DNA of 12,917 nucleotides from Acidobacteriota bacterium. Lineage in GTDB: Bacteria > Acidobacteriota > Aminicenantia > UBA2199. Made by a program: the position numbers and the translations under genes. A model generated the notes under the pieces. It was not told the DNA's origin and searched no databases. It saw only the letters and a program-made list of their open reading frames with translations. This document shows positions 1-12,917 of the stretch, piece after piece. Numbering within the stretch: position 1 is the stretch's first letter; the number at the start of each line of letters is the position of its first letter. The DNA lies in the NCBI GenBank assembly GCA_021817755.1, contig JAKAGC010000040.1:1-12917 (forward strand), in the 5' to 3' direction.

Positions 1-385
1 GTATTAACATTTCATGGTCTACTCGAACAATCTGTTGCCGTTGTGAAATAATACGCGTTTTTACGAGGGTTTGATTTTCGGAGGTACGATAGAGTGTATT
101 TGTAAATCCATCTATTCTGGAAAATTCATCAGCATAAGAATCATTTCCGGTAATTCCCATTAAAATACACTGACTTCCGAGTTTAACAATATTGGAAGCC
201 ACATTCCCCGCCCCACCAGCTCGACACTCCTCTTTTTCTACCTTAACTACAGGAACGGGGGCTTCGGGTGATATACGATTCACACTTCCAAAAATATAAC
301 GATCCAGAATAACATCCCCAAATACCAATACTTGTTTTTCTTTAAAATGCGAACATATTTTTTCAAATCGTTTTATCGATGTCAT
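1..385 (-). CDS. hldE: D-glycero-beta-D-manno-heptose-7-phosphate kinase (RfaE1/HldE kinase domain), 3' end beyond the window
   Basis: ATP-dependent sugar kinase of the PfkB/ribokinase family that phosphorylates heptose 7-phosphate at C1 on the way to ADP-heptose, the inner-core LPS precursor; cytoplasmic. I translated 128 codons by hand from the ATG at 385 with no stop before the left edge. Near the N-terminus are VFGDVILDRY and RISPEAPVPVVKVE, then GGAGNVASNIVKLG and later LVKTRIISQRQQIVRVD, all diagnostic of RfaE1. An AGGA ribosome site lies about 7 bases before the ATG. It starts 7 bases after the stop of the O-antigen ligase gene and is the fourth gene of that operon. The window cuts it, so I cannot tell whether it is a kinase-only protein (about 330 residues) or the bifunctional HldE with a C-terminal nucleotidyltransferase. 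The family call is firm; the choice between rfaE1 and hldE is open. Confidence 0.93.
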   Translation of the reverse strand, partial: MTSIKRFEKICSHFKEKQVLVFGDVILDRYIFGSVNRISPEAPVPVVKVEKEECRAGGAGNVASNIVKLGSQCILMGITGNDSYADEFSRIDGFTNTLYRTSENQTLVKTRIISQRQQIVRVDHEMLI

Positions 386-392
386 AGAATTC

Positions 393-1616
393 CTAAATTG
401 GGGTACCATTAGAATTGACCCTATTAATTTTATTATCGGATATTTCAAACAATGATTCCTTCAAAGTTATAAATGGAATGCTTATAAAAAAGAACAATAG
501 GAATTTTATTTCTGTATCCCCATAATTATATTCAAACAAACCGGCCACCAGGAAACCGATAAATACAAATAATACCCCAAGAGGTATTACTTTTTCAGCG
601 TGAGGCATAATTTTAATTTTTCTTACAAGATTAATAATAATAGATACAAAAGCAATTAAAAGGCTTAATAAACCTAGAATTCCACGTTCGGCTGCAACCT
701 GAAAAAAATTATTATGCAAATGAAGATTCGTTTGCTGGGCTTCGGGGGGTTTATAACGATCGTAAACCATGGGAATATTATTGGGGCCAACTCCGGTCAC
801 AGGGTAATCCTTCACTATATTTACTGCCATTCGCGCCATAAAAATTCGATCTTTATTTGAAGCATCGTTTATATCAACAATTGAAATAAAACGATTTTTC
901 ACGGTAGGAGGAAGAAATATAAAAGCTAATATAATAAAAGGGATTGCGATATATAGAATTTTGGGTTTGAAGTAAATAATAAATGTACCGAGTGCAAAAG
1001 CAATTCCTATCCAAATAGATCGCGTTAATGATAAATATATGGTAATGAGTATCAAAATCAGACCTATTGATATGGCTATACGCATCTTGAATCGTTTTTC
1101 ATAAAAAACATAAACAAAAAAGAAAATAAAAGTCAGCATCAGGAGACCGGAGAAAGTCATCCAATGGGAAAGGAATCCTTTTAACCGGAAATCAAGCGAA
1201 ACACCTCCTCTGCGGAAGGCATCAACAATACCGATAGCGGCTGAAAGTACGCCTGAAATTAAAACAGTATAGAGAGAAATAATTAACCTTTTTTTTGAAG
1301 TTATGATGACCAGGAACAGAGGAATCAATAAATAAAGAAATGCTTCTTTATTATCTTTAATACTAACCCATCGATCGACTGCTGTCAGTGAAGAAATTAA
1401 GGTCACTACTGCATACAGCAATAAAAACTTATAATAACGGGGAAGTGCGGGAATATAAAACCCATTCAATATCGTGTAACCAATCCACTGTAAAAGTAAT
1501 ACTGTAAATAAAATATAACAACCCGCTATCGAAAAGTTTATAAGGAATAAAAAACCGAGCAGCAGGTAAAATGTAACATCACTTTGAATATTGAATAATT
1601 GCTTCATAGACTTCAT
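393..1616 (-). CDS. waaL: O-antigen ligase family membrane protein (WaaL/Wzy_C-like)
   Basis: Multi-spanning inner-membrane protein of 407 residues with about 11-12 hydrophobic segments, the layout of the O-antigen ligase/polymerase family. The larger extracytoplasmic region lies around residues 237-310 and ends in a His-x-His-Asn motif (H299, H301) before NNFFQVAAERGILG, matching the conserved ligase loop. LTRSIWIG with R199 resembles the conserved arginine region ahead of that loop. The family transfers undecaprenyl-linked glycan to lipid A-core (WaaL) or polymerises O-units (Wzy); motifs alone do not separate these. The adjacent GT9 and heptose kinase genes favour the LPS ligase. The predicted start at 1616 overlaps the upstream glycosyltransferase gene by 38 bases and has only a weak ACGG beside it. 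The Met4 codon (ATG at 1607) has GGA 8 bases upstream and is an equally good or better start. Confidence 0.82.
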   Translation of the reverse strand: MKSMKQLFNIQSDVTFYLLLGFLFLINFSIAGCYILFTVLLLQWIGYTILNGFYIPALPRYYKFLLLYAVVTLISSLTAVDRWVSIKDNKEAFLYLLIPLFLVIITSKKRLIISLYTVLISGVLSAAIGIVDAFRRGGVSLDFRLKGFLSHWMTFSGLLMLTFIFFFVYVFYEKRFKMRIAISIGLILILITIYLSLTRSIWIGIAFALGTFIIYFKPKILYIAIPFIILAFIFLPPTVKNRFISIVDINDASNKDRIFMARMAVNIVKDYPVTGVGPNNIPMVYDRYKPPEAQQTNLHLHNNFFQVAAERGILGLLSLLIAFVSIIINLVRKIKIMPHAEKVIPLGVLFVFIGFLVAGLFEYNYGDTEIKFLLFFFISIPFITLKESLFEISDNKINRVNSNGTPI

Positions 1617-2586
1617 CCGTAGTAATATTTTTCATACAAGGTATTATATCATAAATGCACCGTCTTTGCGTACAGGGTTGACAATTCATAAGGTGCCGTA
1701 TAATTGAGACATCATGCTCTCTCCAGGGGCCACTAATAGCTGGGATATTGGGACCAAACAATGCTACAATTGGAGTGGGAGTCAAAGAAGCAAGATGCAT
1801 AGGACCGGAATCGGCTCCCACGAATACCGAGCACCGGGAAATGACATATATTAACTCTGGGATGGTTAATTTGCCAGTCAAATTATGTATGGGAAGACGA
1901 GAACATAGATAATCTCCTTTCATTTTTTCATCAGTACTATTTCCAACAAGAAATACATTCCAATTACGAGAGATAAGTTGTGCTGCTAATCGTTCAAAAT
2001 TATCTAACCCCCAATCCCGGAAATTATTTCCTGCTCCCACATGGAAAACGGCTTTATTCCCATGAGTTTCTAAAACTGAAATATCCATCTTATTAGACAC
2101 AAGATGATGATCTATGGATAAAGCAGGATAAGGCGGAATCGAATCGCTTGTAACAAAACATCCCAAATGCTCCAACAATCTAGCTTGATTATAAACTGAA
2201 TGATTAGGTGAGTCTGGATTATTTCTGGGAGAAAAATGAGTATAAGCCCAATTACGGTTAGGAGTGCGGTATCCGATACGACATTTTATACCACTGAGCC
2301 AGGTAAGTTGCGCACTACGGGGTCCGGAATGAAAATCCACTACTGCATCATAAGTTTCAGACTGAATTTTTTTTCTAAAATTCCACATCTCTTTGATTCC
2401 CATCTTCCGAGGGACGACTATGACTTGATCAATACCGGGAATAAGACGGGCAAGCTCAGCATAAGGCTCTTCTACTATGTATGATAGGAGTGTATTGGGG
2501 AAGCGATGTTTAAAAATTTGAATAGAGGGGATAGTTAAAACGATATCCCCTAGCAGCCGCAATCTGATAAATAGAACGCGTTCCAC
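1579..2586 (-). CDS. Glycosyltransferase family 9 protein, heptosyltransferase-like
   Basis: Cytoplasmic, membrane-associated GT-B enzyme of 335 residues (usual size for GT9), which normally adds ADP-activated heptose to the growing LPS core. The N-terminus has the family signature RLRLLGDIVLTIPS. The second half has HVGAGNNFRDWG and GADSGPMHLASLTPTPIVALFGP, the nucleotide-sugar binding region. A C-terminal C-x2-C-x4-C-x6-C cluster (CQPCTQRRC...PCM) is common in this family. The start is GTG at 2586, whose first base is the last base of the upstream TAG stop; no good ribosome site is visible, so translation is probably coupled to the Trm112-like gene. Ligase and heptose kinase genes follow. 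The exact sugar and acceptor cannot be read from sequence; WaaC, WaaF and WaaQ-type roles are all possible. Confidence 0.88.
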   Translation of the reverse strand: MERVLFIRLRLLGDIVLTIPSIQIFKHRFPNTLLSYIVEEPYAELARLIPGIDQVIVVPRKMGIKEMWNFRKKIQSETYDAVVDFHSGPRSAQLTWLSGIKCRIGYRTPNRNWAYTHFSPRNNPDSPNHSVYNQARLLEHLGCFVTSDSIPPYPALSIDHHLVSNKMDISVLETHGNKAVFHVGAGNNFRDWGLDNFERLAAQLISRNWNVFLVGNSTDEKMKGDYLCSRLPIHNLTGKLTIPELIYVISRCSVFVGADSGPMHLASLTPTPIVALFGPNIPAISGPWREHDVSIIRHLMNCQPCTQRRCIYDIIPCMKNITTDEVYEAIIQYSK

Positions 2587-2777
2587 TAGTCGGTAATAGT
2601 TATGGCTTCATCCAGCATCATAACGGGAATTCCTTCCCGTATCGGAAAAATCCTTTTACAACCTTCGCATTTCAAGCCATAGCTATCCTTTTTGTACTCC
2701 ACCGGTTCGACACCGGTTTTGCATGCGGGGCATGCCAATATGTCCAATAATTCTTTTGAAATAATCGTTTGTTCCAT
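2586..2777 (-). CDS. Trm112-like small zinc protein
   Basis: Small protein of 63 residues with two CxxC knuckles (C16/C19 in LACPAC and C37/C40 in CEGC), then the conserved RIFPIREGIPVMM segment of the Trm112/YcaR family. The four cysteines should bind one structural zinc. Eukaryotic and archaeal Trm112 stabilise and activate SAM-dependent methyltransferases. Bacterial members are often found beside LPS or cell-envelope glycosyltransferase genes, and their function is poorly known. Length is normal for the family. An AGAAGGAA ribosome site precedes the ATG closely. It is the first gene of the four-gene LPS operon, and its stop overlaps the next start by one base. Family assignment is secure; the role in LPS synthesis is inferred from position only. 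Confidence 0.88.
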   Translation of the reverse strand: MEQTIISKELLDILACPACKTGVEPVEYKKDSYGLKCEGCKRIFPIREGIPVMMLDEAITITD

Positions 2778-2822
2778 TTTTTCCTTCTATTTAAAATTTG
2801 GTAAATATGTCTTCCGATTGAC

Positions 2823-2851
2823 ATTTTCTCATGGATAGGGTTTCATGTCAA
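2823..2851 (-). promoter_or_regulatory. Candidate sigma70-type promoter of the LPS operon
   Basis: On the minus strand TTGACA (2851-2846, perfect -35) is followed after 17 bases by GAAAAT (2828-2823, 4 of 6 bases of the -10). It lies in the 120-base gap between the REC-HATPase-PP2C gene and the Trm112-like gene and would give a leader of about 40 bases. The -35 is also one arm of a 7-base inverted repeat, TTGACAT at 2818-2824 and ATGTCAA at 2845-2851, which could be an operator or chance. No T-tailed terminator is clear in the gap, so read-through from the chemotaxis cluster is possible. Confidence 0.5.
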
Positions 2852-2897
2852 CGGGGTGGAAAAATAAATTCATCCACAAAAAACAACTGCAAGAGTA

Positions 2898-4598
2898 TTA
2901 TTCAATCTCAATAATGGCAATGGTAATATCGTCTTCAATATTTCCATCGGTAAATGAGTAAACTGCTTCTTTTATTCTTTTAATAATTTCGGATATTCCC
3001 GTATGAGCACCTTCACGATAAATAGTGGTTAACCGTTCTTCGCCGAACTCCTCCAATTTCGAATTTTTTGCCTCAGTGACACCATCGGTGTAAAAAAGAA
3101 TTCTATCTCCTGGTTCAAGGTATAATTCTCGTTCTTCAAATTTAGTATCCTTGAACACTCCAACAAAAAAACCTTCGGAATTAAGAGGAACGACTTCGCC
3201 GGAATTCACTTTTAAGAGGAGAGGAGATGGATGATTGGCATTGGTATAAACGAACTTCTTCTCTTCCTGAAAATATATCCCGTAAAAAGAGGTAAAATAT
3301 TCTCCAGAATTCAAATATTGGAAGAACTCTTGATTTAAAATTTCATATAACAATTCGGGAGAAAGAACATCCTTGCCATACAATGAGAAGAATACCTTCA
3401 ACATTGAAGATATTAACGCCGCAGCAACACCATGACCTGATATATCGGAAATAAAATATCCATAAATATTTTCTTCTAAACGGGTGATATCGATAAAATC
3501 ACCGGATACCTTCTGCAACGGAATAAATAGAAAATCACATTTGACTCCTGGAAATTCTTGTAAATCCTTTTTTTTGGGCAAAAATGTCGTCTGAAATTCT
3601 GCTGCCAGGTCTAACTCAAAATCAAAATCCTCTTTCATTCTGGAGAGTTTTTTCATTTTTTCAACTACTTCAAAACTCTCTACTTCATCATCTAATTTCG
3701 TCCGTTTATCTTTCTTCCCATCAGCATATTTTACCAAAGTAACTTTGTTGCCCTTTTCATTGTAAATAACTTCATCATAAGCATTAAGAGTCATCATAAT
3801 CCCTTTACCATGCTCATTAAGAAAATTTTCAGGATTCTGAGGATCAGGAATCGATGTTAAATCGAATCCTTTTCCCATATCTTCTATAGTTAATTTTAAA
3901 TAATCAGTTGTGGAAAAAACTTTGATATCGACCACTTTATTTACATTTTCCGGACGTAGAGCTTTTTCCCGTAGAGCCCTGTTATACTCACCGGAACTCA
4001 ATAGCTTCTGTTTTTCTTCATAAGAAATTTCAAGGTTCCCGTGTTCGATTGCATTAATCAAAATTTCCTGGAGTCCAATTTTCATAAAAGATATTTCTCC
4101 AAAAATATAATCGACATTTGCAAAAATATAATCGGTTACGGAAGGGATAATATGTATATCATTAGAAATCTTGAGATGACGTTTTTCCCATTGTAAAAAG
4201 GAAGCACTTAGTTTAACACGTATTTTCTTAAATAATATTTCAATTTTACTAATAAGGTATTTCAAATCTTTGGGTTTAAAAGGTTTCTTTAATAATTCTA
4301 CCGCGCCATTTCTCATTGCACTCAAGATCAAATTATGATCAGAATAGCCAGTTATTACAATAATGGGGACATCCTTATCTATTTCTTTAATTTCTTTTAC
4401 AACAATATTTCCGCTTTTATCTGGTAATCGAATATCGGAAATAACTATATCGGGAGAAAATTCTCGAAATTTCTCAATACCTTCGTTTCCGCTTTCTGCC
4501 AGTATTACTTCATAATTGTAAATCATAAAAAAATCTTTCAAGTATTCTAGTAAATCCACATTGTCATCAATGATTAGTATACTTCCTTTGTAGCTCAT
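2898..4598 (-). CDS. Response regulator with RsbW-like kinase domain and SpoIIE-type PP2C phosphatase (REC-HATPase-PP2C)
   Basis: A 566-residue cytoplasmic switch protein with three parts. Residues 1-125 are a receiver with D11/D12, phospho-acceptor D55, T83 and K105 all present. Residues about 145-295 are a GHKL ATPase of the anti-sigma kinase type: N-box QEILINAIEHG (E178, N182), then EDMGKGFD (240s) and HGKGI (263-267). After a charged linker, residues about 330-566 are a SpoIIE/RsbU-type PP2C with SGDFIDI, SDISGHG, YTDGVTEA and EDDIT, including the metal-binding aspartates D367, D385, D505 and D557. Both opposing activities look intact. By family analogy the kinase phosphorylates, and the phosphatase dephosphorylates, a serine on a STAS protein, with the receiver setting the balance. 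It overlaps cheB by four bases (ATGA) with GGAGGG upstream, so it is the last gene of the chemotaxis cluster. HsbR of Pseudomonas uses the same domains in a different order. Confidence 0.9.
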   Translation of the reverse strand: MSYKGSILIIDDNVDLLEYLKDFFMIYNYEVILAESGNEGIEKFREFSPDIVISDIRLPDKSGNIVVKEIKEIDKDVPIIVITGYSDHNLILSAMRNGAVELLKKPFKPKDLKYLISKIEILFKKIRVKLSASFLQWEKRHLKISNDIHIIPSVTDYIFANVDYIFGEISFMKIGLQEILINAIEHGNLEISYEEKQKLLSSGEYNRALREKALRPENVNKVVDIKVFSTTDYLKLTIEDMGKGFDLTSIPDPQNPENFLNEHGKGIMMTLNAYDEVIYNEKGNKVTLVKYADGKKDKRTKLDDEVESFEVVEKMKKLSRMKEDFDFELDLAAEFQTTFLPKKKDLQEFPGVKCDFLFIPLQKVSGDFIDITRLEENIYGYFISDISGHGVAAALISSMLKVFFSLYGKDVLSPELLYEILNQEFFQYLNSGEYFTSFYGIYFQEEKKFVYTNANHPSPLLLKVNSGEVVPLNSEGFFVGVFKDTKFEERELYLEPGDRILFYTDGVTEAKNSKLEEFGEERLTTIYREGAHTGISEIIKRIKEAVYSFTDGNIEDDITIAIIEIE

Positions 4599-5653
4599 TT
4601 TAGTTTACCCTCCGCAAATTCGACGATTTTTTGAGAAATATTCGGTAGTGAGATCTGGTATTCAACTCCCCCCAATTCAAAAGCACGTTTAGGCATTCCA
4701 TAGACGATGGAAGATTCCTGATCCTGACCAATTGTTCGAGATTGATTGAGCCTCATTTGCAAGATTCCCTGGGCTCCATCTTCGCCCATACCTGTGAGGA
4801 TGATTCCAAGGATTTCCGGACCTCCAATCCGGGCTGCCGATAGAAACAATACATTCACTGCCGGTAAATGAAATCCGACTGGTTTTCCTTCAACCAATCG
4901 GGTATAAAACAATCCGGAGCGTTTTTGAATTTCAAGATGAAAATTTCCTGGAGCCACCACCACTTTTCCTGGTGTCAACGGTTCATTATTTTCTGCAACC
5001 TTTACATTGAGAGTAGTTTTTTTATTCAATTGTTCGGCCAATGATTCGACAAACGTGGCCGGCATGTGTTGAACTATAGCAATACCGGGTGTATTCTGAG
5101 GTAAACGCATTAAAACCTGTGTTAATGCCTGTACTCCCCCAGTAGATGATCCCATTAAGATAACTTTATTGGAAGTTTGGATATGATCCGCAGCAGTTTC
5201 AATAATGGAACGGTTTTCCTTTTGAACTCCTTTTCTTCTAATATTAGAAGTAACAGCATTACGCACTTTTCTAACAATTTCATCTTTTATATCATCAAGA
5301 GTCTGCCATGTACTAAGTTCAGGTTTAGGGAAATAATCGACTGCTCCGATTTCTAATGCCTCTAATGTCATAGCGGCACGATCTTTCGTTAATGTACTTA
5401 TCATTACTACTGGTGTGGGACGAGATTGAATAATCTTTTTTAGAAATTCAATCCCATTCATCCGGGGCATTTCCACATCAAGGGTAATAACATCGGGCCA
5501 ATTGGTTTTCATAATATCCCGAGCATGAAAAGGATTGGAAGCAGTGCCGATAATCTCAAAATCAGGAAGCTTTGCAAATAAATCCTTTAAGAACGTTCGA
5601 ATAACAATCGAATCATCAACGATCAGCAATTTGTATTTTCGCGTTTCATTCAT
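4595..5653 (-). CDS. cheB: Chemotaxis response regulator methylesterase CheB
   Basis: CheB removes methyl groups from (and deamidates) receptor glutamates; phosphorylation by CheA relieves inhibition by the receiver. The 352-residue protein is of standard length and architecture. Receiver about 1-125: D13/D14, phospho-acceptor D59, S86/T87 and K110. After a linker, the esterase domain about 160-345 has the triad in its usual motifs: S170 in GSSTGG, H196 in VQHMP and D292 in LTGMGEDGA. The near C-terminal QDQESSIVYGMPKRA is also typical. It starts 2 bases after the cheD stop and ends in an ATGA overlap with the REC-HATPase-PP2C gene, so all three should be co-translated. Nothing is missing or unusual; I expect it to be active. 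Confidence 0.97.
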   Translation of the reverse strand: MNETRKYKLLIVDDSIVIRTFLKDLFAKLPDFEIIGTASNPFHARDIMKTNWPDVITLDVEMPRMNGIEFLKKIIQSRPTPVVMISTLTKDRAAMTLEALEIGAVDYFPKPELSTWQTLDDIKDEIVRKVRNAVTSNIRRKGVQKENRSIIETAADHIQTSNKVILMGSSTGGVQALTQVLMRLPQNTPGIAIVQHMPATFVESLAEQLNKKTTLNVKVAENNEPLTPGKVVVAPGNFHLEIQKRSGLFYTRLVEGKPVGFHLPAVNVLFLSAARIGGPEILGIILTGMGEDGAQGILQMRLNQSRTIGQDQESSIVYGMPKRAFELGGVEYQISLPNISQKIVEFAEGKLK

Positions 5654-5655
5654 AA

Positions 5656-6204
5656 TTATATTTCCATACGAGCTCTTTCACGGTATTTTTCTTCGATTGA
5701 GGAGATATTCCCCAAATTCTGAATTACTTTCTTTACGAGTACTTTGCCAGTTTGAGGAAAAAAGAATAACTTTCGTGCCGATCTACCACCAAGATCACTA
5801 GAAACTACTGGAATATTTTCCATTTCAAGAAATGCTTTAATAAATCGAATATTATTTTGACCTATATTGGAAGAAGTATTGGCAATGATATCTGCTCCCC
5901 CAAAAATTTTGGCTTTTAATTTTGATCGATCAACTTTCAATTTAATCAATTCCCCTAATAATAGTTCCATTGCCCACATACCATACCTGGCCACTGGACT
6001 CAAAAATATCTCCTCATCCCTAAAATCCCCAGGTAGCAGGAAATGATTCATCCCGCCAATTTTCCCATCTTCCTGGTAAATACACGCAGAGACACAGGAT
6101 CCCAGTATGGTTGCAATTCCTTCGCTCTTGTTGGATGCATAATATTCGCCAATATTTATGATCTTAACGTTCTGTTTGAATTTGTTAATATAGATGTCTT
6201 TCAT
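5656..6204 (-). CDS. cheD: Chemoreceptor glutamine deamidase CheD
   Basis: CheD deamidates specific glutamines of methyl-accepting receptors, and in many bacteria it interacts with CheC. The 182-residue protein carries the catalytic pair C37 in LGSCVSACI and H54 in GGMNHFLLP, 17 residues apart as in the Thermotoga enzyme. KIFGGADI, IGQNN, and SSDLGGRSARKLFFFPQTG are the remaining family blocks. The ATG overlaps the cheR stop by four bases (ATGA), with AAGG upstream, and cheB follows after 2 bases. The N-terminus is about 10 residues longer than the Thermotoga protein and the C-terminus has a short extra charged tail. No cheC or cheX gene is in this window, so if CheD is controlled by CheC the partner must be elsewhere. 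Confidence 0.96.
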   Translation of the reverse strand: MKDIYINKFKQNVKIINIGEYYASNKSEGIATILGSCVSACIYQEDGKIGGMNHFLLPGDFRDEEIFLSPVARYGMWAMELLLGELIKLKVDRSKLKAKIFGGADIIANTSSNIGQNNIRFIKAFLEMENIPVVSSDLGGRSARKLFFFPQTGKVLVKKVIQNLGNISSIEEKYRERARMEI

Positions 6205-7049
6205 CCTACCTTCTTATAGATCGATTTCCCAATAAATTTGAATAAATGATTATACTTGAAAAGATTTTCAGAATGGCCAGAAAAAAAAAAGCCCGGCGTA
6301 TTCATTACAGCATGAAATTTCTCATATACTGTTTTGCGGGTTTCATGATCGAAATATATTACTACATTTCGGCAAAAAATAATATCAACACTATGTTTAA
6401 ACCGGAATGGATCATAAACCAAATTGATACGTTTAAATACTACATATTGACGTAAGCGAGATTTTAATTTGTATTCAGTGTCAGAAACCCGATCAAAATA
6501 AGCATCCAATTTGGGGGCATCTATCCCCTTGAGTTCTTCCAAAGTATATTGTCCTGATACAGCTTTATTCAATACATCAGTGTCTATATCGGAACCTAAT
6601 ATTTTTAAATCCAAAGTAGTGGGGATTACCCCGTGAAACTCTTCCAGTAATTCCAACAGAATTGTATATACCTCTTCTCCCGTGGAACAACCTGCACTCC
6701 ATACCCTTAAAAACTGTTTACCTTTTGATTTTTTACTTTCAATTATCTGCGAAAGTACCGTACTACGTAACATTTCGAACTGGTTATTCTCCCTATAAAA
6801 CTTTGTCAAATTTGTAGTCATCCGGTTAATGAAACGGGCAACTTCCGCTGGATCCGATTCCAATAATACAATATAAGGTTCAAATGAAGAATATCCCAAC
6901 TCCCTTAGGCGTTTATATAAACGGGATACAACCAGTGCCCGTTTACTCTCCACCAAATGTATCCCAGTTGTCTTAAAAACGATATCGCGTATTTTGAGGA
7001 ACTCTCCGTCGCTTAACCTGACCTCGACAATTTCCATTTTCTCCGTCAT
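6201..7049 (-). CDS. cheR: Chemotaxis protein methyltransferase CheR
   Basis: SAM-dependent enzyme that methylates receptor glutamates in adaptation. The 282-residue protein has the N-terminal helical domain (about 10-85, with LSDGEFLKIRDIVFKTTGI), then NLTKFYRENNQFEML, the SAM-binding motif RVWSAGCSTGEEVYTI, the acidic motif ILGSDIDTDVLNKA, FCRNVVIYFD, and SGHSENL near the C-terminus. No TPR or receptor-tethering extension is present. The ATG at 7049 is used; Met5 (ATG at 7037) has GGAG three bases before it and is an alternative. A five-codon ORF ATG-GAC-GAT-ATC-GTA-TGA just upstream (7063-7046) ends in an ATGA overlap with the 7049 start, which might couple initiation. There is a 31-base gap from the Hpt-CheW gene. 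Confidence 0.96.
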   Translation of the reverse strand: MTEKMEIVEVRLSDGEFLKIRDIVFKTTGIHLVESKRALVVSRLYKRLRELGYSSFEPYIVLLESDPAEVARFINRMTTNLTKFYRENNQFEMLRSTVLSQIIESKKSKGKQFLRVWSAGCSTGEEVYTILLELLEEFHGVIPTTLDLKILGSDIDTDVLNKAVSGQYTLEELKGIDAPKLDAYFDRVSDTEYKLKSRLRQYVVFKRINLVYDPFRFKHSVDIIFCRNVVIYFDHETRKTVYEKFHAVMNTPGFFFSGHSENLFKYNHLFKFIGKSIYKKVG

Positions 7050-7080
7050 ACGATATCGTCCATGTTATTTAATCCAAATT

Positions 7081-8613
7081 TTATCCATTACTAATTCCGA
7101 TTTGATCTTCTTCCATTTTAAAAATCTCTTTTAATTTTAAGAGAATGATAAACTTTCCATCCTTCTGACCGATACCGATCAAATATGAAGATGGAATCTG
7201 TTGCATTTGGGGTGCATCCGATATTTCTTTCCGGGTAAACTGGATGACTTCCGAGACGCAATCCACAATAATCCCCATTTTTTTTCCATTAATTACTGCG
7301 ATTAAAATAATGGTTTTATGATCGTAGGGACGTTCTTCAAATCCCAGTCTCACACGAAAATCGAATACTGGAATAATATCGCCGCGGAGATTTATTATTC
7401 CTTTCGTAAATTTTTCGGCATTGGGAAGTGGTGTGATCACATGAAGAGTCACTATCTCGTGAACCTGACGGATACCAATTCCGTATTCCTCTTCTCCAAC
7501 CATAAATGTAAGATATTCGTTAATTTCCCGTATTAAATCACTATCTTCGTCTTCTTCATCGTCGTCTTCTTCGTAATCTATTTCTCCTTCATCATTAACA
7601 GAACTTCCCACTCTTACTTCATGAGATTCCTCGTTATTCCCATTTTCATCAGGAGAGAGAGTCTCTCTAACATCAAAATCCGGATCAACTTCTTCTTCAT
7701 TAAAATCGTCTTCTTCTTTATATCTCGCAGAATTCTCAGATTTTACGGCCCTGGGCATTACTGATTCCCGGTCTCCTTTTTCTTTTCCCTTAAGATAATC
7801 CGTGGAATCCGGTAGGTATCCTTTTTTCCTTCCTTCATCTTTTAAACGGACATCCTCGATTACTTCCGCTTCCACCAATGAATCCGGTTTGACTTCTTTA
7901 ACATTTTTTTCATCAATACCAAAAATATGAGCTACAAGATCCCGTTCCAGCACCGAGGCATAAAGTATACTCAGAGGTATCCCTTCGCCAGTAAAGTTGT
8001 CATCTTTTAGGACTAACTCCATATCAACATTTCGTGCGAGAATTTCTCCGGTTTTTTCAATTTCATTGAGAAAGTCCAATGGATTTTTTCCTCCGAGGGC
8101 TTCATCTTTTAATTCAAATTGAACCAGATATACTTTCTTTCCTTGTTTTCTTAATGCATCTATTCTTTGTTTATCAATTTTAACCGATGTATCTTGTATA
8201 TCTTCTTTAATTTTTGTAACTACTTTATTAACCGGTTTGGAGTCCAGACATTTTTTTAATTCCTGCAAATTCACTCGAATATCGTAATCATCACTTTGTT
8301 CGCTGTCTTCCAGCATGTCTTTTAATTTATCTATAGCTTTCAATACACTGGATGATATCTCAGAATTAAAAACAAGTTCATTGTTCCTGACCAGGTTAAA
8401 TATATCTTCCATTTTATGGGAAAGTTTTTCGATATTTTTGAGGCCAAGAAAAGATGAACCTCCCTTTATGGAATGAACGGCTCGAAATACCCGGTTTATC
8501 AATTCATTGTCCGCGCTTCCTTGTTCTATTATAATAATATCTTCTTCGATATTCTTGAGATGCTCCAGGGACTCCTCGACAAATTCGGGGATCAAATCGC
8601 CAAACTCACTCAT
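7081..8613 (-). CDS. Hpt-CheW hybrid protein (CheA-like, lacking dimerisation and kinase domains)
   Basis: A 510-residue protein built like CheA with its middle removed. Residues 1-105 are a histidine phosphotransfer domain with H47 in FRAVHSIKGGSSFLGL, like the CheA P1 site. Residues about 158-235 (VYLVQFELKDEALGGKNPLDFLNEI...) resemble residues 152-230 of the CheA encoded next door, its P2-like region. Residues about 295-360 are a strongly acidic, low-complexity linker. Residues about 363-500 are a full CheW/P5 domain with GIINLRGDIIPVFDFRVRLGF. No N-box, G-box or P3 helix is present, so it cannot be a kinase. By family logic the CheW part joins the receptor-CheA array, and H47 could accept phosphate from CheA or pass it between receivers. 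A strong AGGAGG precedes the ATG. It lies 30 bases after cheW and before cheR. Domain calls are firm; the role is inferred. Confidence 0.9.
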   Translation of the reverse strand: MSEFGDLIPEFVEESLEHLKNIEEDIIIIEQGSADNELINRVFRAVHSIKGGSSFLGLKNIEKLSHKMEDIFNLVRNNELVFNSEISSSVLKAIDKLKDMLEDSEQSDDYDIRVNLQELKKCLDSKPVNKVVTKIKEDIQDTSVKIDKQRIDALRKQGKKVYLVQFELKDEALGGKNPLDFLNEIEKTGEILARNVDMELVLKDDNFTGEGIPLSILYASVLERDLVAHIFGIDEKNVKEVKPDSLVEAEVIEDVRLKDEGRKKGYLPDSTDYLKGKEKGDRESVMPRAVKSENSARYKEEDDFNEEEVDPDFDVRETLSPDENGNNEESHEVRVGSSVNDEGEIDYEEDDDEEDEDSDLIREINEYLTFMVGEEEYGIGIRQVHEIVTLHVITPLPNAEKFTKGIINLRGDIIPVFDFRVRLGFEERPYDHKTIILIAVINGKKMGIIVDCVSEVIQFTRKEISDAPQMQQIPSSYLIGIGQKDGKFIILLKLKEIFKMEEDQIGISNG

Positions 8614-8643
8614 ACTAACCTCCTGGTAAACAAAATCATTTTA

Positions 8644-9096
8644 TTAAATTCCATCGATCACTTCAATTTCATCAGAAGAGAACAGTTTATTTACATCTAA
8701 TAGCATAATGAATTTCTTTTCTTTTTCCACCATGCCTTTGATGAATTTTGTACCTTTTCGTTCGGTAAATTTAGGAGGTGGGACAATATCGTCATCTTTA
8801 ATGGTAATCATATCGGAGACGCCATCCACTAGCATTCCCAGTAGACGACCTAGTACTTCCAATACAATGATGACCGAGTATTCATTTGCTTTCTGGATAG
8901 GTAATTGAAACAATTTGCGTAAATCGATAATGGGAACTGCTGTTCCTCTTAAACTCAATACTCCCAGGATAAATGCGGGTGCTTCGGGTATTACCGTCAG
9001 CTCCTGGTTCCTGATAATCTCTTTAATGCGGGTTAATTCGATCCCATAATCCTCTTCCAATTTAAATGTGATGTATTGTTTTTCGTCGATCGCCAT
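8644..9096 (-). CDS. cheW: Chemotaxis coupling protein CheW
   Basis: CheW links chemoreceptors to CheA in the membrane-bound signalling array. This single-domain protein of 150 residues has the full SH3-like fold signature: QYITFKLEEDYGIELTRIKEII, FILGVLSLRGTAVPIIDLRKLF, GMLVDGVSDMITI and KFIKGMVEKEKKFIMLLDV. An in-frame TTG at 9099 would add one residue, but GGAGG (9105-9101) stands only one base from it and four bases from the ATG at 9096, so I chose the ATG. It lies 40 bases downstream of cheA and 30 bases upstream of the Hpt-CheW hybrid. The array could thus contain three CheW-type domains from this cluster: CheW, the CheA C-terminus and the hybrid. Nothing unusual in length or motifs. 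Confidence 0.96.
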   Translation of the reverse strand: MAIDEKQYITFKLEEDYGIELTRIKEIIRNQELTVIPEAPAFILGVLSLRGTAVPIIDLRKLFQLPIQKANEYSVIIVLEVLGRLLGMLVDGVSDMITIKDDDIVPPPKFTERKGTKFIKGMVEKEKKFIMLLDVNKLFSSDEIEVIDGI

Positions 9097-9099
9097 CAA

Positions 9100-9105
9100 T
9101 CCTCC
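9100..9105 (-). promoter_or_regulatory. Shine-Dalgarno site that decides the cheW start
   Basis: GGAGGA on the minus strand directly abuts an in-frame TTG at 9099 but is four bases (from GGAGG) from the ATG at 9096. The spacing makes the ATG the likelier start. Confidence 0.7.
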
Positions 9106-9136
9106 AGGCTATATAAGCGTATTCCAGTTTTCATGC

Positions 9137-11230
9137 TTAAATATCCATCATTCGTTCAAGACCGGGAATATCCAGAATAAGTGAAATACTTCCATCTCCA
9201 TTCAATGACGCTCCGATAATCCCCGGGATAGAACGGTAATTATCCTGTAAATTCTTTATAACCGCTTGAGAAATTCCCAATATTTCATCCACATATATAC
9301 AAAACTTTTTAAAGGTACTTTCAACTAATACGACGATACCTTTTTGGAAATCTTTTTCCTGGATATCTTCATCTCCCAGATATTTGTGTAACCTCACCAA
9401 TGGATAAACTTCTCCACGGAGATTAACAAGGTCTTTAGCGCCTTTGACGGTTTTTAGATCCAACGTTGCCAACTGAAAAGATTCGACGATGGCATCTAGG
9501 GGAACGATATATGTCCGCTCACCGATACGCAGTCTCATACCGTCTATAATAGCAATAGTCAGTGGGATTTTTATCTTAAAACGCGTTCCTTTCCCAATTG
9601 TAGATGAAATTTCGATACGGCCTTTGAGGGATTCGATATTTTTTTTCACTACATCCATTCCCACTCCCCTTCCAGAAATCTCAGTTACAACCGCTGCTGT
9701 GGAAAACCCAGGCATAAATAGGAAAGAATAAATCTCTTCGTTGCTCATATTCTCTTTCGGTTTTTTTGTCATTCCCTTGGAGAATGCTTTTTTATATATG
9801 ACATCCGGATCAATGCCTTTTCCATCGTCTTCGATTTCAATAATCACATTTCCTTCTTCCTGGTAGGCACGCATCCAGATATTTCCTTTTTCCGGTTTTC
9901 CTACTTTTCTACGATCTTCCGGCGTTTCAACTCCATGATCTACCGAATTCCGAACCATATGCTTTAAGGGATCGGCAATCTGTTCGATCATAGTTTTATC
10001 CAGTTCGGTTTCTTCTCCGGAAATATGAAGTTCTATATTTTTCTTCTGTGAATTAGCCAGATCACGAACTACCCTGTAAAAGCGTTTAAACGTACTTTCC
10101 AGGGGAACCATACGAACCATCATGATTTGTTCTTGCAAGTCCCGTGATATTCTATTTAATTCGGTGGTACTATTGATGATTTCCTTGATCCCGGTTTGTT
10201 GTGCGATCATAGAAATCCGTGATACGGAAATCACCATCTCACCGATAAGATTAATGAGCTTATCAAGTTTATCGGTTTTAACTCGTATTGTGGAAGCAAT
10301 CTGAACTTTCTTACTTTTCTGTTTCTTTTTTAGTATTTTTTGAATTTCCTCTTTTTTGACGGAGGTTTTGGCAACAATTTCCTCCCCGATTTTTTTATGC
10401 TGGGCGGCAATGCGTTCCACTTCTTCTTCTTCAATTACGCCTTCGTCAACTAAGATTTCACCGATTTTTTTATCGGCCAGTTCCGTATCTACATCTTCCA
10501 CAAACCTGGAGTTGATATCGCTGATTTCAATCGGGTTCTCATCATAAACAAAAATAAATACGTCTTTTACTTCATCAAAGGTATTACGGGTGCGTAGTAT
10601 AAGGTCGTAAAAAATATAATTTTTATAAGGGTCTATTTGTTCAAGCTCGGGGATACGGCTAATATTGGCACGTATTGAATCGAAAGAGCCCTGCTCCGAT
10701 AATTCCCTAAGAAGCAGAATCGGATCCTGACCACGGTTGAAGATATCTTCTTTCAACTCCACATGAATGCCAAAGTATTTTGCTTTTTTGACTTTCCTGG
10801 CTTCCCTTTTTTCTTCCACTTTAAATTCGACAGGTTCCGTAACTCCTTTGAACCGATTCAATGATGCCTCAATTTTCGCAATTTTCTTCTCTTCTACAGG
10901 GGGACCACCAAAATAGAATTCGATAAAACCTTTGAGGATATCTATGGATTCAAGTATAAGGGAGATCAGGTTTTTTGAAATGCGTAATTCGCCTTGACGA
11001 ACACGATCCAGGATATTTTCCACGCCGTGAGCAAAATGAGCCATGTCATTAAAACCGACAACTCCGGCACTGCCTTTTATGGAGTGAAATATTCTGAATA
11101 TCTCGTTGATAAGCTCTTGATTGTGAACATCTTTTTCCAAGGAGATGAGTACTTCTTCCGCATCTTCGACCAACTCATCTACTTCATTCTTGAAGATTTC
11201 TTTTAACTTCTCGATGTTGTTATCCTTCAT
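9137..11230 (-). CDS. cheA: Chemotaxis histidine kinase CheA
   Basis: Receptor-controlled histidine kinase that phosphorylates CheY and CheB. The 697 residues give P1 (1-105) with H49 in FRIFHSIKGSAGVVGF; a P2-like region (about 150-235) with no obvious likeness to E. coli P2; a linker holding two copies of an IGE(I/E) motif repeat (256-280 and 281-304); P3 dimerisation helices (315-375, LDKLINLIGEMVISVSRI); P4 ATPase (380-560) with N-box HMVRNSVDHGVE (N428, H432), DDGKGID, SGRGVGMDVV and GKGTRF; and P5 CheW-like domain (560-697) with VNLRGEVYPLVRL. All catalytic motifs are present, so it should be active. It starts 12 bases after the cheY stop, with GGTGA as ribosome site, and cheW follows after 40 bases. 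Confidence 0.97.
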   Translation of the reverse strand: MKDNNIEKLKEIFKNEVDELVEDAEEVLISLEKDVHNQELINEIFRIFHSIKGSAGVVGFNDMAHFAHGVENILDRVRQGELRISKNLISLILESIDILKGFIEFYFGGPPVEEKKIAKIEASLNRFKGVTEPVEFKVEEKREARKVKKAKYFGIHVELKEDIFNRGQDPILLLRELSEQGSFDSIRANISRIPELEQIDPYKNYIFYDLILRTRNTFDEVKDVFIFVYDENPIEISDINSRFVEDVDTELADKKIGEILVDEGVIEEEEVERIAAQHKKIGEEIVAKTSVKKEEIQKILKKKQKSKKVQIASTIRVKTDKLDKLINLIGEMVISVSRISMIAQQTGIKEIINSTTELNRISRDLQEQIMMVRMVPLESTFKRFYRVVRDLANSQKKNIELHISGEETELDKTMIEQIADPLKHMVRNSVDHGVETPEDRRKVGKPEKGNIWMRAYQEEGNVIIEIEDDGKGIDPDVIYKKAFSKGMTKKPKENMSNEEIYSFLFMPGFSTAAVVTEISGRGVGMDVVKKNIESLKGRIEISSTIGKGTRFKIKIPLTIAIIDGMRLRIGERTYIVPLDAIVESFQLATLDLKTVKGAKDLVNLRGEVYPLVRLHKYLGDEDIQEKDFQKGIVVLVESTFKKFCIYVDEILGISQAVIKNLQDNYRSIPGIIGASLNGDGSISLILDIPGLERMMDI

Positions 11231-11242
11231 GTTATCACCATA

Positions 11243-11626
11243 TCACCTTATAAATTTCTTTATAATCGATAGCAGCAAGTCGGGTTTGAAGGGTTTGGTC
11301 ATCCATCCGGCAGCTCCATACTCTCTTCCTTGCTGTTTCAGGATTTCTTCACGTTCGGTGGTTAGGATAATAACCGGGATAAACTTGAACAGTGATTTAC
11401 TATCTTTTACAGCCCGTAAAAATTCCAATCCGTTCATTTTGGGCATATTGACATCGGAAATAATCAAGTTGATGCGTTCGCCTTTTTTTCTCAGGTCTTC
11501 CAGCATTTTGAGTCCCGCTTCGCCGTTTTCCGATTGAAATACATTATATCCCCCGCCGGTTAAAACAAAATTTACCGATGCTCTCAGGGTGGGAGAATCA
11601 TCAACGATCAAAATATTCTTTTTCAT
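11243..11626 (-). CDS. cheY: CheY-type single-domain response regulator
   Basis: Stand-alone receiver of 127 residues, the usual CheY length. D9/D10 bind magnesium, D58 in LIISDVNMPKMNG is the phospho-acceptor, T89/T90 are the switch threonines, and K111 in WMTKPFKP is the invariant lysine. Its place directly before cheA makes it the likely CheA target that carries the signal to the flagellar motor, although single-domain receivers near STAS genes can serve other outputs. GAGG of the ribosome site overlaps the stop codon of the STAS gene upstream, so the two are probably coupled. No cheZ, cheC or cheX gene for CheY-P dephosphorylation is in the window. Confidence 0.92.
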   Translation of the reverse strand: MKKNILIVDDSPTLRASVNFVLTGGGYNVFQSENGEAGLKMLEDLRKKGERINLIISDVNMPKMNGLEFLRAVKDSKSLFKFIPVIILTTEREEILKQQGREYGAAGWMTKPFKPDLLLSIIKKFIR

Positions 11627-11634
11627 TCCAAACC

Positions 11635-11934
11635 TCAGTTTTCCAGTTTAAGGAATTTATTTAACCCGGATAAATCCAGGATTTCCTTTGTTTCCGTATT
11701 GGCTCCTATAATCTTATATTTGATCTTATCTCGCTGCATGGATTTAATCAATGCAATCAGCAATTGGATGCCGGAAGAATCGATATCGGTCAAACCGGAA
11801 AGATCGATATTCACCTCTTTTTCCTGTGTTATTTTTTCCAGTCTTGCTAAGAGCGCGTCCTTTACCTGCTGCGCATTGTCAAAGATCAACTCTCCCTCGA
11901 CAATGATATTGTTTTTTGACCCTTTGATTTTCAT
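11635..11934 (-). CDS. STAS-domain protein with canonical DSSG motif (anti-sigma-factor-antagonist-like)
   Basis: Single STAS domain of 99 residues, the normal size for SpoIIAA/RsbV-type antagonists. INLIDS-type core: IDLSGLTDIDSSGIQLLIALI, where D52-S53-S54-G55 is the switch motif; one of the two serines is the expected phosphorylation site of an RsbW-like kinase. It ends with ILDLSGLNKFLKL, also typical. Its sequence differs strongly from the two other STAS proteins here, so it is a separate subfamily. It starts 15 bases after the neighbouring STAS gene, with only a weak ribosome site, and is followed by cheY after 8 bases. The obvious candidate partner is the REC-HATPase-PP2C protein at the cluster's end. 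A scaffold role in the chemotaxis array is an alternative. Confidence 0.9.
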   Translation of the reverse strand: MKIKGSKNNIIVEGELIFDNAQQVKDALLARLEKITQEKEVNIDLSGLTDIDSSGIQLLIALIKSMQRDKIKYKIIGANTETKEILDLSGLNKFLKLEN

Positions 11935-11949
11935 TCTAGTACTCGATCA

Positions 11950-12249
11950 TCAAATATTGAATAACTTATCCAGTTTAATTGCTTTAAATAATGCAGTAAT
12001 TTCCTTATTCAAGTTCATAATTGTTACACGCCCTCCTTTGGAGGTAAATTTTTTATAAAACAGCAGGAGTTTTCCTATTCCGGAACTCCCTATGAAATTG
12101 ACTTCTTCGAAGTTAATGCACACTTCTTCGGGGGTTTCTTCCGATATCTGGTTCAGGGCCTTTTTCAAGCTTTCTGCGCCAGGAATGTCGATACTTCCCG
12201 ATAAGAATACGGTTGTTTTGCTGCCTTCGTTCACGACCTTTATATTCAT
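11950..12249 (-). CDS. STAS-domain protein (anti-anti-sigma-like), first gene of the chemotaxis cluster, GSSG motif
   Basis: STAS protein of 99 residues with SGSIDIPGAESLKKAL and NFEEVNFIGSSGIGKLLLFYKKF. The switch motif reads GSSG instead of the usual DSSG, but both serines that could be phosphorylated remain. I counted 66 of 99 identical residues with the STAS protein at 12612-12911; the last 50 residues are nearly the same. An in-frame TTG at 12255 gives a two-residue longer form, but GGAG (12260-12257) is seven bases from the ATG at 12249 and only one base from the TTG, so the ATG is preferred. It also gives exactly the paralogue's length. Two candidate promoters lie just upstream, which makes it the leading gene of the run down to 2898. 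Its partner is probably an RsbW-like kinase; target unknown. Confidence 0.9.
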   Translation of the reverse strand: MNIKVVNEGSKTTVFLSGSIDIPGAESLKKALNQISEETPEEVCINFEEVNFIGSSGIGKLLLFYKKFTSKGGRVTIMNLNKEITALFKAIKLDKLFNI

Positions 12250-12256
12250 ACGCAAT

Positions 12257-12260
12257 CTCC
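12257..12260 (-). promoter_or_regulatory. Shine-Dalgarno site that decides the STAS gene start
   Basis: AAGGAG on the minus strand with GGAG seven bases from the ATG at 12249 and one base from an in-frame TTG at 12255. The spacing selects the ATG. Confidence 0.75.
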
Positions 12261-12279
12261 TTTTTTTGATTTTTTTAAT

Positions 12280-12308
12280 AATATAGTAAAGATGGGAAAA
12301 AAAATCAA
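12280..12308 (-). promoter_or_regulatory. Candidate proximal sigma70-type promoter of the chemotaxis cluster
   Basis: Minus strand TTGATT (12308-12303), a 17-base spacer, then TATATT (12285-12280): 9 of 12 consensus bases with ideal spacing. Transcription would begin some 25 bases before the ATG at 12249. The -35 lies inside the descending arm of the perfect inverted repeat at 12297-12326, so hairpin formation on read-through RNA, or protein binding at the repeat, could affect it. Confidence 0.5.
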
Positions 12309-12326
12309 GTTACTTTGATTTTTTTT
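12297..12326 (-). terminator. Perfect 12-base A/T-rich inverted repeat, possible bidirectional terminator or attenuator
   Basis: Arms A8-TCAA (12297-12308) and TTGA-T8 (12315-12326) pair perfectly around a six-base loop. On either strand the RNA would form a hairpin whose 3' arm is a run of eight U. There is little G+C in the stem, so it would be a weak intrinsic terminator; it could instead be an attenuator in the leader made from the distal promoter, or a protein-binding site. Confidence 0.45.
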
Positions 12327-12387
12327 CATACAATGCCTTCATGCCTGATCTGGGTACTCCCGATTGAATTGATATCGACCCGTCACC

Positions 12388-12416
12388 ATTTTATCTTAGA
12401 CAGGACTTAAAGTCAA
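12388..12416 (-). promoter_or_regulatory. Candidate distal sigma70-type promoter of the chemotaxis cluster
   Basis: Minus strand TTGACT (12416-12411), a 17-base spacer, then TAAAAT (12393-12388): 10 of 12 consensus bases. It is the best promoter match I found in this gap. Its -35 overlaps the palindrome GACTTAAAGTC (12404-12414), a possible operator. The leader would be about 130 bases and would contain the inverted repeat at 12297-12326. Confidence 0.55.
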
Positions 12417-12464
12417 TCATTCGAACTGTTCGGCTCTCAATTTTCGATATTGGGTAGGGGAAAA

Positions 12465-12493
12465 GGACGCTGGCGAGTTTATACTCAACGTCC
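12465..12493 (-). terminator. Imperfect hairpin with short T-tail downstream of the right-hand STAS gene
   Basis: On the minus strand GGACG (12493-12489) pairs with CGTCC (12469-12465), and inside it GAGT pairs with ACTC around a four-base loop; an asymmetric internal loop separates the two stems. TTTT follows at once (12464-12461), then CCCC. This could end transcription from the STAS gene at 12612, but the T-tail is short. Confidence 0.35.
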
Positions 12494-12545
12494 TGTAAAC
12501 CCTCTAAAACCTTTGTGAACAAATCGCACTACATTGTTCCTTTAA

Positions 12546-12564
12546 CCGCAATAATATTTTGCGG
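12546..12564 (-). repeat. Short inverted repeat (hairpin)
   Basis: CCGCAA and TTGCGG form a perfect 6-base stem around a 7-base A/T loop, about 50 bases after the stop of the right-hand STAS gene. No T-run follows on the minus strand, so it is not a normal intrinsic terminator; it could stabilise the 3' end of the transcript. Confidence 0.35.
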
Positions 12565-12611
12565 CGTTACCGAGTTTTATCGAACAATTCGGCCTTTATT
12601 TCGGGAACATC

Positions 12612-12911
12612 TCAAATATTAAATAACTTATCCAGTTTTATAGCTTTGAACAGCATTGTGATTTCCTTATTCAGATTAATAATGGAAATCTTTCCGCCGC
12701 GCGCTGTGAAATTTTTGTAAAAAAGTAACAATTTTCCAATACCCGAACTTCCGATAAAGTTTACCTCTTCGAAATCGATTGTCAACTCATCCGAATCGCT
12801 TTCCAATACTTTTGTCAATGACTTCTTCAACTGCTCGGAACCCGGGATATCGATACTTCCGGATACATTCATTACCGTCTTTTTGCCATCTACGGCTGTT
12901 TTCACATGCAT
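12612..12911 (-). CDS. STAS-domain protein (anti-anti-sigma-like), paralogue of the neighbouring STAS protein
   Basis: STAS protein of 99 residues with VSGSIDIPGSEQLKKSL and DFEEVNFIGSSGIGKLLLFYKNF. Like its 67% identical paralogue at 11950-12249 it has GSSG in place of DSSG, and both end in the same LFKAIKLDKLFNI. The reading frame continues two codons to the window's edge, but the ATG at 12911 aligns exactly with the paralogue's start, so I take the gene as complete. Its promoter and ribosome site lie outside the window. A 362-base gap with possible terminators and new promoters separates it from the next STAS gene, so it may be regulated on its own. Likely substrate of an RsbW-like kinase; the partner it binds is unknown. 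Confidence 0.88.
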   Translation of the reverse strand: MHVKTAVDGKKTVMNVSGSIDIPGSEQLKKSLTKVLESDSDELTIDFEEVNFIGSSGIGKLLLFYKNFTARGGKISIINLNKEITMLFKAIKLDKLFNI

Positions 12912-12917
12912 GTCAGA

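Follow-up and report, generated by a model that had tools for sequence, protein, structure and literature searches.

An Hpt - P2-like - CheW protein encoded beside a complete CheA in an Acidobacteriota chemotaxis operon, and the association of its P2-like type with SpoIIE/STAS partner-switch genes

In chemosensory systems, the routing of one kinase to several outputs is usually credited to the affinity of P2 and the selection of receivers within CheA. The stretch considered here, hereafter the window, comprises 12,917 nucleotides from an Acidobacteriota bacterium (Aminicenantia, UBA2199; GenBank assembly GCA_021817755.1, contig JAKAGC010000040.1, positions 1 to 12,917), the chemotaxis operon of which encodes, besides a complete CheA, a separate protein of 510 amino acids with a histidine phosphotransfer domain (Hpt), a P2-like domain, an acidic linker and a CheW domain, hereafter the Hpt-CheW protein. 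The nearest published layout is that of CheA3 from Rhodobacter (Cereibacter) sphaeroides, with an N-terminal Hpt, a dead kinase between and a C-terminal CheW/P5, as described in a CheA survey of 2023 (PMC10782961). CheA3 has a phosphorylated N-terminal Hpt, a C-terminal CheW/P5 and no working kinase, is localised in an array and works with a kinase partner (same source); for the Hpt-CheW protein, phosphorylation, array localisation and the kinase partner are predicted. In CheA3, a middle part of 794 amino acids nevertheless still holds degenerate remnants of Hpt, P2, P3 and P4, and its partner CheA4 is without Hpt, whereas in the Hpt-CheW protein a kinase remnant was not found, the C-terminus is of the same type as stand-alone CheWs, and a complete CheA is encoded beside it. 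The same text takes P1, P3, P4 and P5 as the core and identifies CheA homologues by HATPase plus CheW, so that a protein deprived of HATPase would, we infer, escape that survey. The initial annotation of the window knew of no protein described with precisely this layout in a core che operon; this stands insofar as the literature searched, mostly non-subscription, yielded no case of Hpt-CheW next to a complete CheA and no connection of a P2 type with SpoIIE/STAS, and has to be qualified in view of CheA3.

CheV carries a receiver and not an Hpt-P2 unit, and this receiver lies at the other end of the protein. What it has in common with the Hpt-CheW protein is the fusion of a CheW-like domain to one that acts in a phosphorelay (PMC12691637). 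A P1-P2 fragment of CheA also combines an Hpt with a receiver-docking domain, and the Hpt-CheW protein aligns to such structures (2lp4 and 1u0s), but it forms a polypeptide apart from CheA, has a CheW domain of its own and is without P3-P4. HptB of Pseudomonas aeruginosa is not known to have P2 or CheW. In the HptB-HsbR-HsbA path, the Hpt is fed by hybrid kinases and acts on a REC-phosphatase-kinase protein and, through it, on a STAS protein (PMC6482189), which indicates that a chain from Hpt to REC-phosphatase/kinase to STAS is workable. The genes for such a chain, i.e. for an Hpt, a REC-phosphatase-kinase protein and STAS proteins, are found together in the window, the domain order of the target being REC-PP2C-kinase in the HsbR type and REC-HATPase-SpoIIE here.

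In the Hpt-CheW protein, Pfam recognizes an Hpt at residues 7-104 (53.7 bits, cut-off 24.6) and a complete CheW domain at residues 366-501 (119.8 bits, cut-off 23.5; profile positions 1-137 of 138), and no further match at E≤10, be it to PF02895, PF02518 or REC; it thus lacks P3 and HATPase, and no degenerate kinase remnant was detected between the two domains at that threshold, the stretch following the P2-like domain being disordered. In other words, a P1-type Hpt with the candidate phospho-histidine of a CheA is there, without P3, the P4 ATPase or a P5-type CheW domain, and the fusion of REC to CheW that typifies CheV is not. The AlphaFold model comprises a five-helix Hpt (residues 2-124), a ferredoxin-like domain (160-240), a disordered region (254-355) and a CheW fold (364-504). 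The N-terminal 242 residues of the model can be aligned with the solved CheA P1-CheY/P2 structure 2lp4 at a root-mean-square deviation of 10.9, the domains matching and their placing differing, and its C-terminus aligns with CheW structures. For the middle domain, the top Foldseek match is the CheA P2 1u0s_A (probability 0.93, E 0.082), and hhalign gives a remote resemblance to CheA P2-like regions, with a probability of 63% when the close family is used and 91% when the distant family is, seven negative controls giving 31% for one REC and at most 2.3% for the others. The intact phosphotransfer histidine, the complete CheW domain and the lack of P3 or ATPase motifs had all been read correctly in the initial annotation, and the likening of the central region to the P2-like region of the adjacent CheA is tenable as a remote resemblance to CheA P2-like regions, the P2 type itself being different from that of the adjacent CheA. 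As for the roughly 60 acidic residues announced there, the linker at residues 251-362 contains 41 D/E among 112 (31 of 67 at 296-362). An acidic linker as a conserved feature was rejected, since this is the least conserved part of the family alignment, with lengths of 33-122 amino acids among members having both domains.

The database search for Hpt plus CheW without HATPase_c that the initial annotation had suggested uncovered a conserved family. A first protein search gave 197 matches, the best 120 of which were examined, and among the 93 family clusters listed (P0001-P0093) 84 possess both Pfam domains, seven are Hpt-only (315-332 amino acids) and two lack the N-terminus. A second search, with a distant member as query, gave 110 matches, from which P0121-P0175 were taken; both domains occur in 52 of these 55, including six short proteins of 305-332 amino acids, and CheW only in three. 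Where source names are given, which is not the case for most clusters, they are Aminicenantes, Acidobacteriota, Omnitrophota and Desulfomonilia, as well as Spirochaetia for the short type; short Hpt-CheW proteins without P2 do exist. Among 80 listed loci of named genomes, full-length matches come from at least one Aminicenantes (L009) and at least seven loci titled Deltaproteobacteria or Syntrophaceae (L010-L015, L048). In the alignment of 94 family sequences, 92 of which cover the Hpt region, H47 is kept in 88 (Y in two, R in two), and K50 and E69, present beside it in the window, in all 92; the NLRG of the CheW domain is nearly invariant, and this conservation suggests that the domain could bind the receptor tip and CheA P5. 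Over the family, the histidine is replaced by Y in P0025, P0028 and apparently P0163, and by R in P0082 and P0088; not every member is therefore able to carry phosphate.

Regarding the origin of the parts, a tree of 85 CheW domains, chosen from 388 domain matches, places all 30 CheA P5 domains on one side (branch support by the Shimodaira-Hasegawa-like approximate likelihood ratio test, SH-aLRT, 100) and all CheW domains of Hpt-CheW proteins with stand-alone CheWs. A second tree covers 59 selected Hpt domains; in it, the type of the adjacent CheA (11 rows) stands separate (98) and the four Hpt-only rows sit among the Hpt-CheW rows. Many inner forks are open in these midpoint-rooted trees, and some branches are long. 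Both trees argue for a P1-P2 unit joined to CheW and not for a CheA minus P3-P4; descent from a cheA copy by loss of P3-P4, as proposed in the initial annotation, is not supported, and derivation from the adjacent cheA by deletion was rejected on the same trees. To judge by the position of its rows, the Hpt-only form looks like the product of a later loss of CheW.

The P2 type of the Hpt-CheW protein, named P2c here, is present in the phylum of the window in four architectures, namely Hpt-CheW, Hpt-only, Hpt-CheR and CheA; in Aminicenantes, the latter two are represented by L114 and L115 and by one CheA (L109), respectively, and single P2c sequences from these three loci match the profiles of the family at 75-95% and that of the adjacent-CheA P2 at 0.7-3%. 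Among the eight Aminicenantes loci with P2c, including the window, SpoIIE is found in all and STAS in seven, the contig of the remaining one (L118) ending behind cheY. When 396 genomes of the phylum were scanned with a profile of the Hpt and middle domain, at least 186 had a match, mostly in CheA P1 regions. Outside the family of the window, the strong whole-module matches among those listed number eight (L156-L163; 188-211 bits); they lie in seven CheAs and in one frame truncated at the end of its contig, each with a P2c match of 38-54 bits and with adjoining STAS and REC-SpoIIE genes; Pfam confirmed STAS in all eight and SpoIIE in the six checked. Among the P2c loci examined in the phylum, SpoIIE is thus present in 16/16 and STAS in 15/16, the sixteenth lying at a contig end. 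Lower in the profile list, neither P2c nor STAS was found in twelve CheA loci, and in one of these (L175) a SpoIIE gene lies at a distance of about 6 kb; P2c, STAS and SpoIIE were all not found in seven further CheA loci, and five Aminicenantes CheA loci without P2c (L110, L111, L123, L124, L125) have no SpoIIE and a single STAS (L110; Pfam 29.7 bits). Taken together, the 24 CheA loci without P2c and without any P2c protein include one with SpoIIE, one with STAS and none with both. The contrast holds within one family and its rows are not independent, because family f31 supplies six of the eight P2c-positive loci and seven of the first twelve controls.

In the genome of the window itself, a second contig (C241, L109) encodes a CheA with P2c together with a methyl-accepting chemotaxis protein (MCP), a HATPase-STAS protein and a SpoIIE frame truncated where the contig ends; from its gene content, this may be another chemosensory system linked to partner switching. 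Long proteins with the domains PAS - histidine kinase - REC - SpoIIE - HATPase are encoded at L162:4414-8226 and L163:9732-13799 beside STAS and a P2c CheA, the REC-SpoIIE protein of these loci thus carrying its own histidine kinase part.

We conclude that the REC-HATPase-SpoIIE gene and its STAS genes are the conserved partner of the Hpt-CheW gene, and that P2c is likely the docking domain for the REC-HATPase-SpoIIE protein. Starting from the domains, the conservation of H47, the gene association and the origin of the parts, we infer phosphotransfer, docking, array localisation and a downstream target as follows. The Hpt-CheW protein would be a second P1-P2 arm, a separate polypeptide that its own CheW domain holds in the chemoreceptor array; CheA P4 would phosphorylate H47 in trans, the flexible linker would give reach to the Hpt and P2c domains, and P2c would dock on the REC of the REC-HATPase-SpoIIE protein from the same cluster. 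That protein would take the phosphoryl group and then reset the serine phosphorylation of STAS by partner switching. One array would hence have two outputs, CheY and CheB through the P1-P2 of CheA and the STAS switch through the arm. We regard this overall reading, the best of those considered, as evenly poised. For the window, with its intact CheA and receptors, the phosphoryl donor is most likely CheA P4, and CheW most likely serves to anchor the protein in the array. Docking in the array through CheW, already put forward in the initial annotation, draws indirect support from the clusters of two relatives, where this is the only CheW domain besides CheA P5; among the roles listed there, the relay to another receiver is likewise backed indirectly, by the gene association, the REC-HATPase-SpoIIE protein being the likely target. 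A broader proposal, which is possible although we lean against it, is that of plug-in arms, in which an Hpt and a receiver-specific P2 are fused to CheW, so that one kinase would serve two receivers chosen by two P2 types (CheY/CheB via CheA P2, the STAS switch via P2c) and the arm would outlive the array where receptors and kinase are lost. If true, a detachable, CheW-held P1-P2 arm would be a modular answer to the routing problem, tying chemosensory arrays to STAS/SpoIIE switches; besides, the P2c association yields a specific docking prediction testable with purified domains.

Family f1 comprises 34 draft genomes, 60-96% complete, for which reason single absences are weak, the loci of G001, G002 and G003 lying inside contigs. 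Seven of them have orthologues of the REC-HATPase-SpoIIE protein. The full operon is found in G000 and in G004 (its STAS end lies beyond the contig), both with intact CheA and receptors, CheA being co-encoded. The clusters of G001, which belongs to the genus of the window, and G003 are reduced to STAS-CheA-HptCheW-REC-HATPase-SpoIIE; their CheAs (L116:5223-7181 and L117:3243-5198) have an in-frame loss of about 46 residues that takes in the ATP lid and the G2 box, that of G003 also having N in place of the P1 histidine, and both are likely pseudokinase scaffolds judging from these changes. The G002 cluster is STAS-Hpt-REC-HATPase-SpoIIE, in a genome where the CheA dimerisation domain was not found and CheW gave a single match of 23 bits. 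In G007 and G013, STAS and REC-HATPase-SpoIIE remain, without Hpt at that place and without any CheA or CheW match in the genome. MCP matches number 15 in G000 (some being pieces of one frame), eight in G004 and two in G001, with one below the cut-off in G002 and none in G003, G007 and G013. Across the f1 clusters with Hpt, REC-HATPase-SpoIIE is present in 5/5 and STAS in 4/5, the fifth being cut by a contig end. An Hpt carrying H47 thus stays beside REC-HATPase-SpoIIE after the loss of receptors, of kinase activity and even of CheW. FliG was detected in G000-G004 and not in the remaining 29 f1 genomes, i.e. in exactly the same five genomes as the Hpt or Hpt-CheW protein, including G003 with no MCP match; this hints at a flagellar link even where receptors are gone, or possibly reflects mere descent, since four of the five genomes are of one genus. 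Elsewhere in G007 and G013, Hpt-P2c-CheR fusions (L114:4741-6315, L115:3605-5056) lie beside REC-SpoIIE and HATPase-STAS genes.

Several points weigh against the second-arm reading. The main weakness of a strictly CheA-driven version is that the decayed lineages, in which CheA looks dead or was not found, need another donor for the Hpt, unless the Hpt has another use. Besides, the deltaproteobacterial gene stands alone (a class I tRNA synthetase gene adjoins it in L010), with SpoIIE or STAS in 0/7 loci within flanks of at most 8 kb a side, less at contig ends, so that these loci were rejected as backing for the SpoIIE link; and a spirochaete CheA with a weak P2c match (L067) has neither within 5.6 kb. 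The rule that P2c always comes with SpoIIE and STAS, and others never, was rejected given L118 (no STAS, contig end), L110 (STAS without P2c) and L067. It is from the decayed lineages that an integrator draws its strength, i.e. a protein mainly fed by orphan or hybrid histidine kinases, which passes phosphate from its Hpt to REC-HATPase-SpoIIE and is merely parked at the array by CheW: Hpt and H47 persist in G002, with CheA not found, and in G001 and G003, with CheA seemingly kinase-dead, while MCPs are gone or few in all three. Considering that CheA and receptors are intact in G000 and G004, where CheA is co-encoded, and that a P1-type Hpt and a CheW domain suit CheA best, such an integrator appears unlikely.

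The same clusters bear on a phosphate sink, or a buffer of phosphorylated CheY inside the array, as suggested by the CheY gene of the window operon and by the capacity of extra Hpt sites to drain phosphate; the protein is nonetheless retained in clusters without CheY (G001, G002, G003) and its P2 type is unlike that of the adjacent CheA, which makes this function improbable. Little credence can also be given to a CheV-like adaptor, in which Hpt phosphorylation would tune the coupling of receptors to CheA by the CheW domain without onward relay. The combination of CheW with a phosphorylatable domain does recall the CheW-REC of CheV, and in G003 no CheW domain other than this one and P5 was found. 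The objection is that a P2 domain, superfluous in a pure adaptor, is retained even in members without CheW, an argument softened by the short members devoid of P2. Finally, a vestigial CheA copy minus P3-P4, to which the order P1-P2-...-P5-like would conform, is hardly credible, as the CheW domain is not a P5, the Hpt belongs to another type than that of the adjacent CheA, H47 is kept and the family occurs in several phyla by source names.

The second-arm reading involves the gene products of a single cluster (Table 1), ordered on the minus strand as STAS (three genes), CheY, CheA, CheW, Hpt-CheW, CheR, CheD, CheB and REC-HATPase-SpoIIE. The open reading frame of the Hpt-CheW gene spans exactly the interval of the initial annotation, which gave no strand, and the plus strand of this interval is full of stops; cheW ends 30 bp before it and cheR begins 31 bp after it, which makes it very likely an operon member.

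Table 1. Features of the chemotaxis cluster in the window (pLDDT, AlphaFold per-residue confidence)
Feature	Position	Strand	Evidence
Hpt - P2-like - acidic linker - CheW protein, 510 aa	7081..8613	-	Open reading frame; Pfam Hpt and CheW; AlphaFold mean pLDDT 78.8
Hpt (CheA P1-type), residues 2-124, H47 codon 8473-8475	8242..8610	-	
P2-like domain (P2c), residues 143-250	7864..8187	-	hhalign to CheA P2-like regions 63-91%; Foldseek
Disordered acidic linker, residues 251-362	7528..7863	-	pLDDT <50 at 254-355; 41 D/E of 112; poor conservation
CheW domain, residues 363-505	7099..7527	-	Pfam 119.8 bits; alignment with E. coli CheW; tree position with stand-alone CheW
REC-HATPase-SpoIIE protein, 566 aa, proposed phospho-acceptor	2898..4598	-	Pfam REC, HATPase_c_2, SpoIIE
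STAS genes (three), proposed partner-switch substrates	11635-11934, 11950-12255, 12612-12911	-	Pfam STAS
CheA (P1, P2-like region, P3, P4, P5), proposed kinase for H47	9137..11230	-	Pfam Hpt, H-kinase_dim, HATPase_c, CheW
Stand-alone CheW	8644..9099	-	Pfam
CheY-like receiver	11243..11626	-	Pfam
CheR 6201-7049; CheD 5656-6204; CheB 4595-5653	4595..7049	-	Pfam

In the REC-HATPase-SpoIIE protein, Asp55 and the lysine of REC as well as the ATPase and phosphatase motifs are kept in the seven orthologues aligned, with some conservative changes, and the STAS motif, DSSG or GSSG, is kept in all 11 sequences aligned; the STAS genes upstream of cheY in the window are two of the GSSG type and one of the DSSG type. 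By alignment, the ATPase motifs of the window CheA are present. Its P2-P3 linker (residues ~250-305) contains, on our reading of the sequence, two K.GE.LV-type repeats, without a Pfam match, and a similar stretch occurs in another CheA of the same genome (L110). Beside the chemotaxis cluster, positions 2-2586 of the window encode a fragment of a PfkB-type sugar kinase, an O-antigen ligase (Wzy_C) and a heptosyltransferase, as recognized by Pfam.
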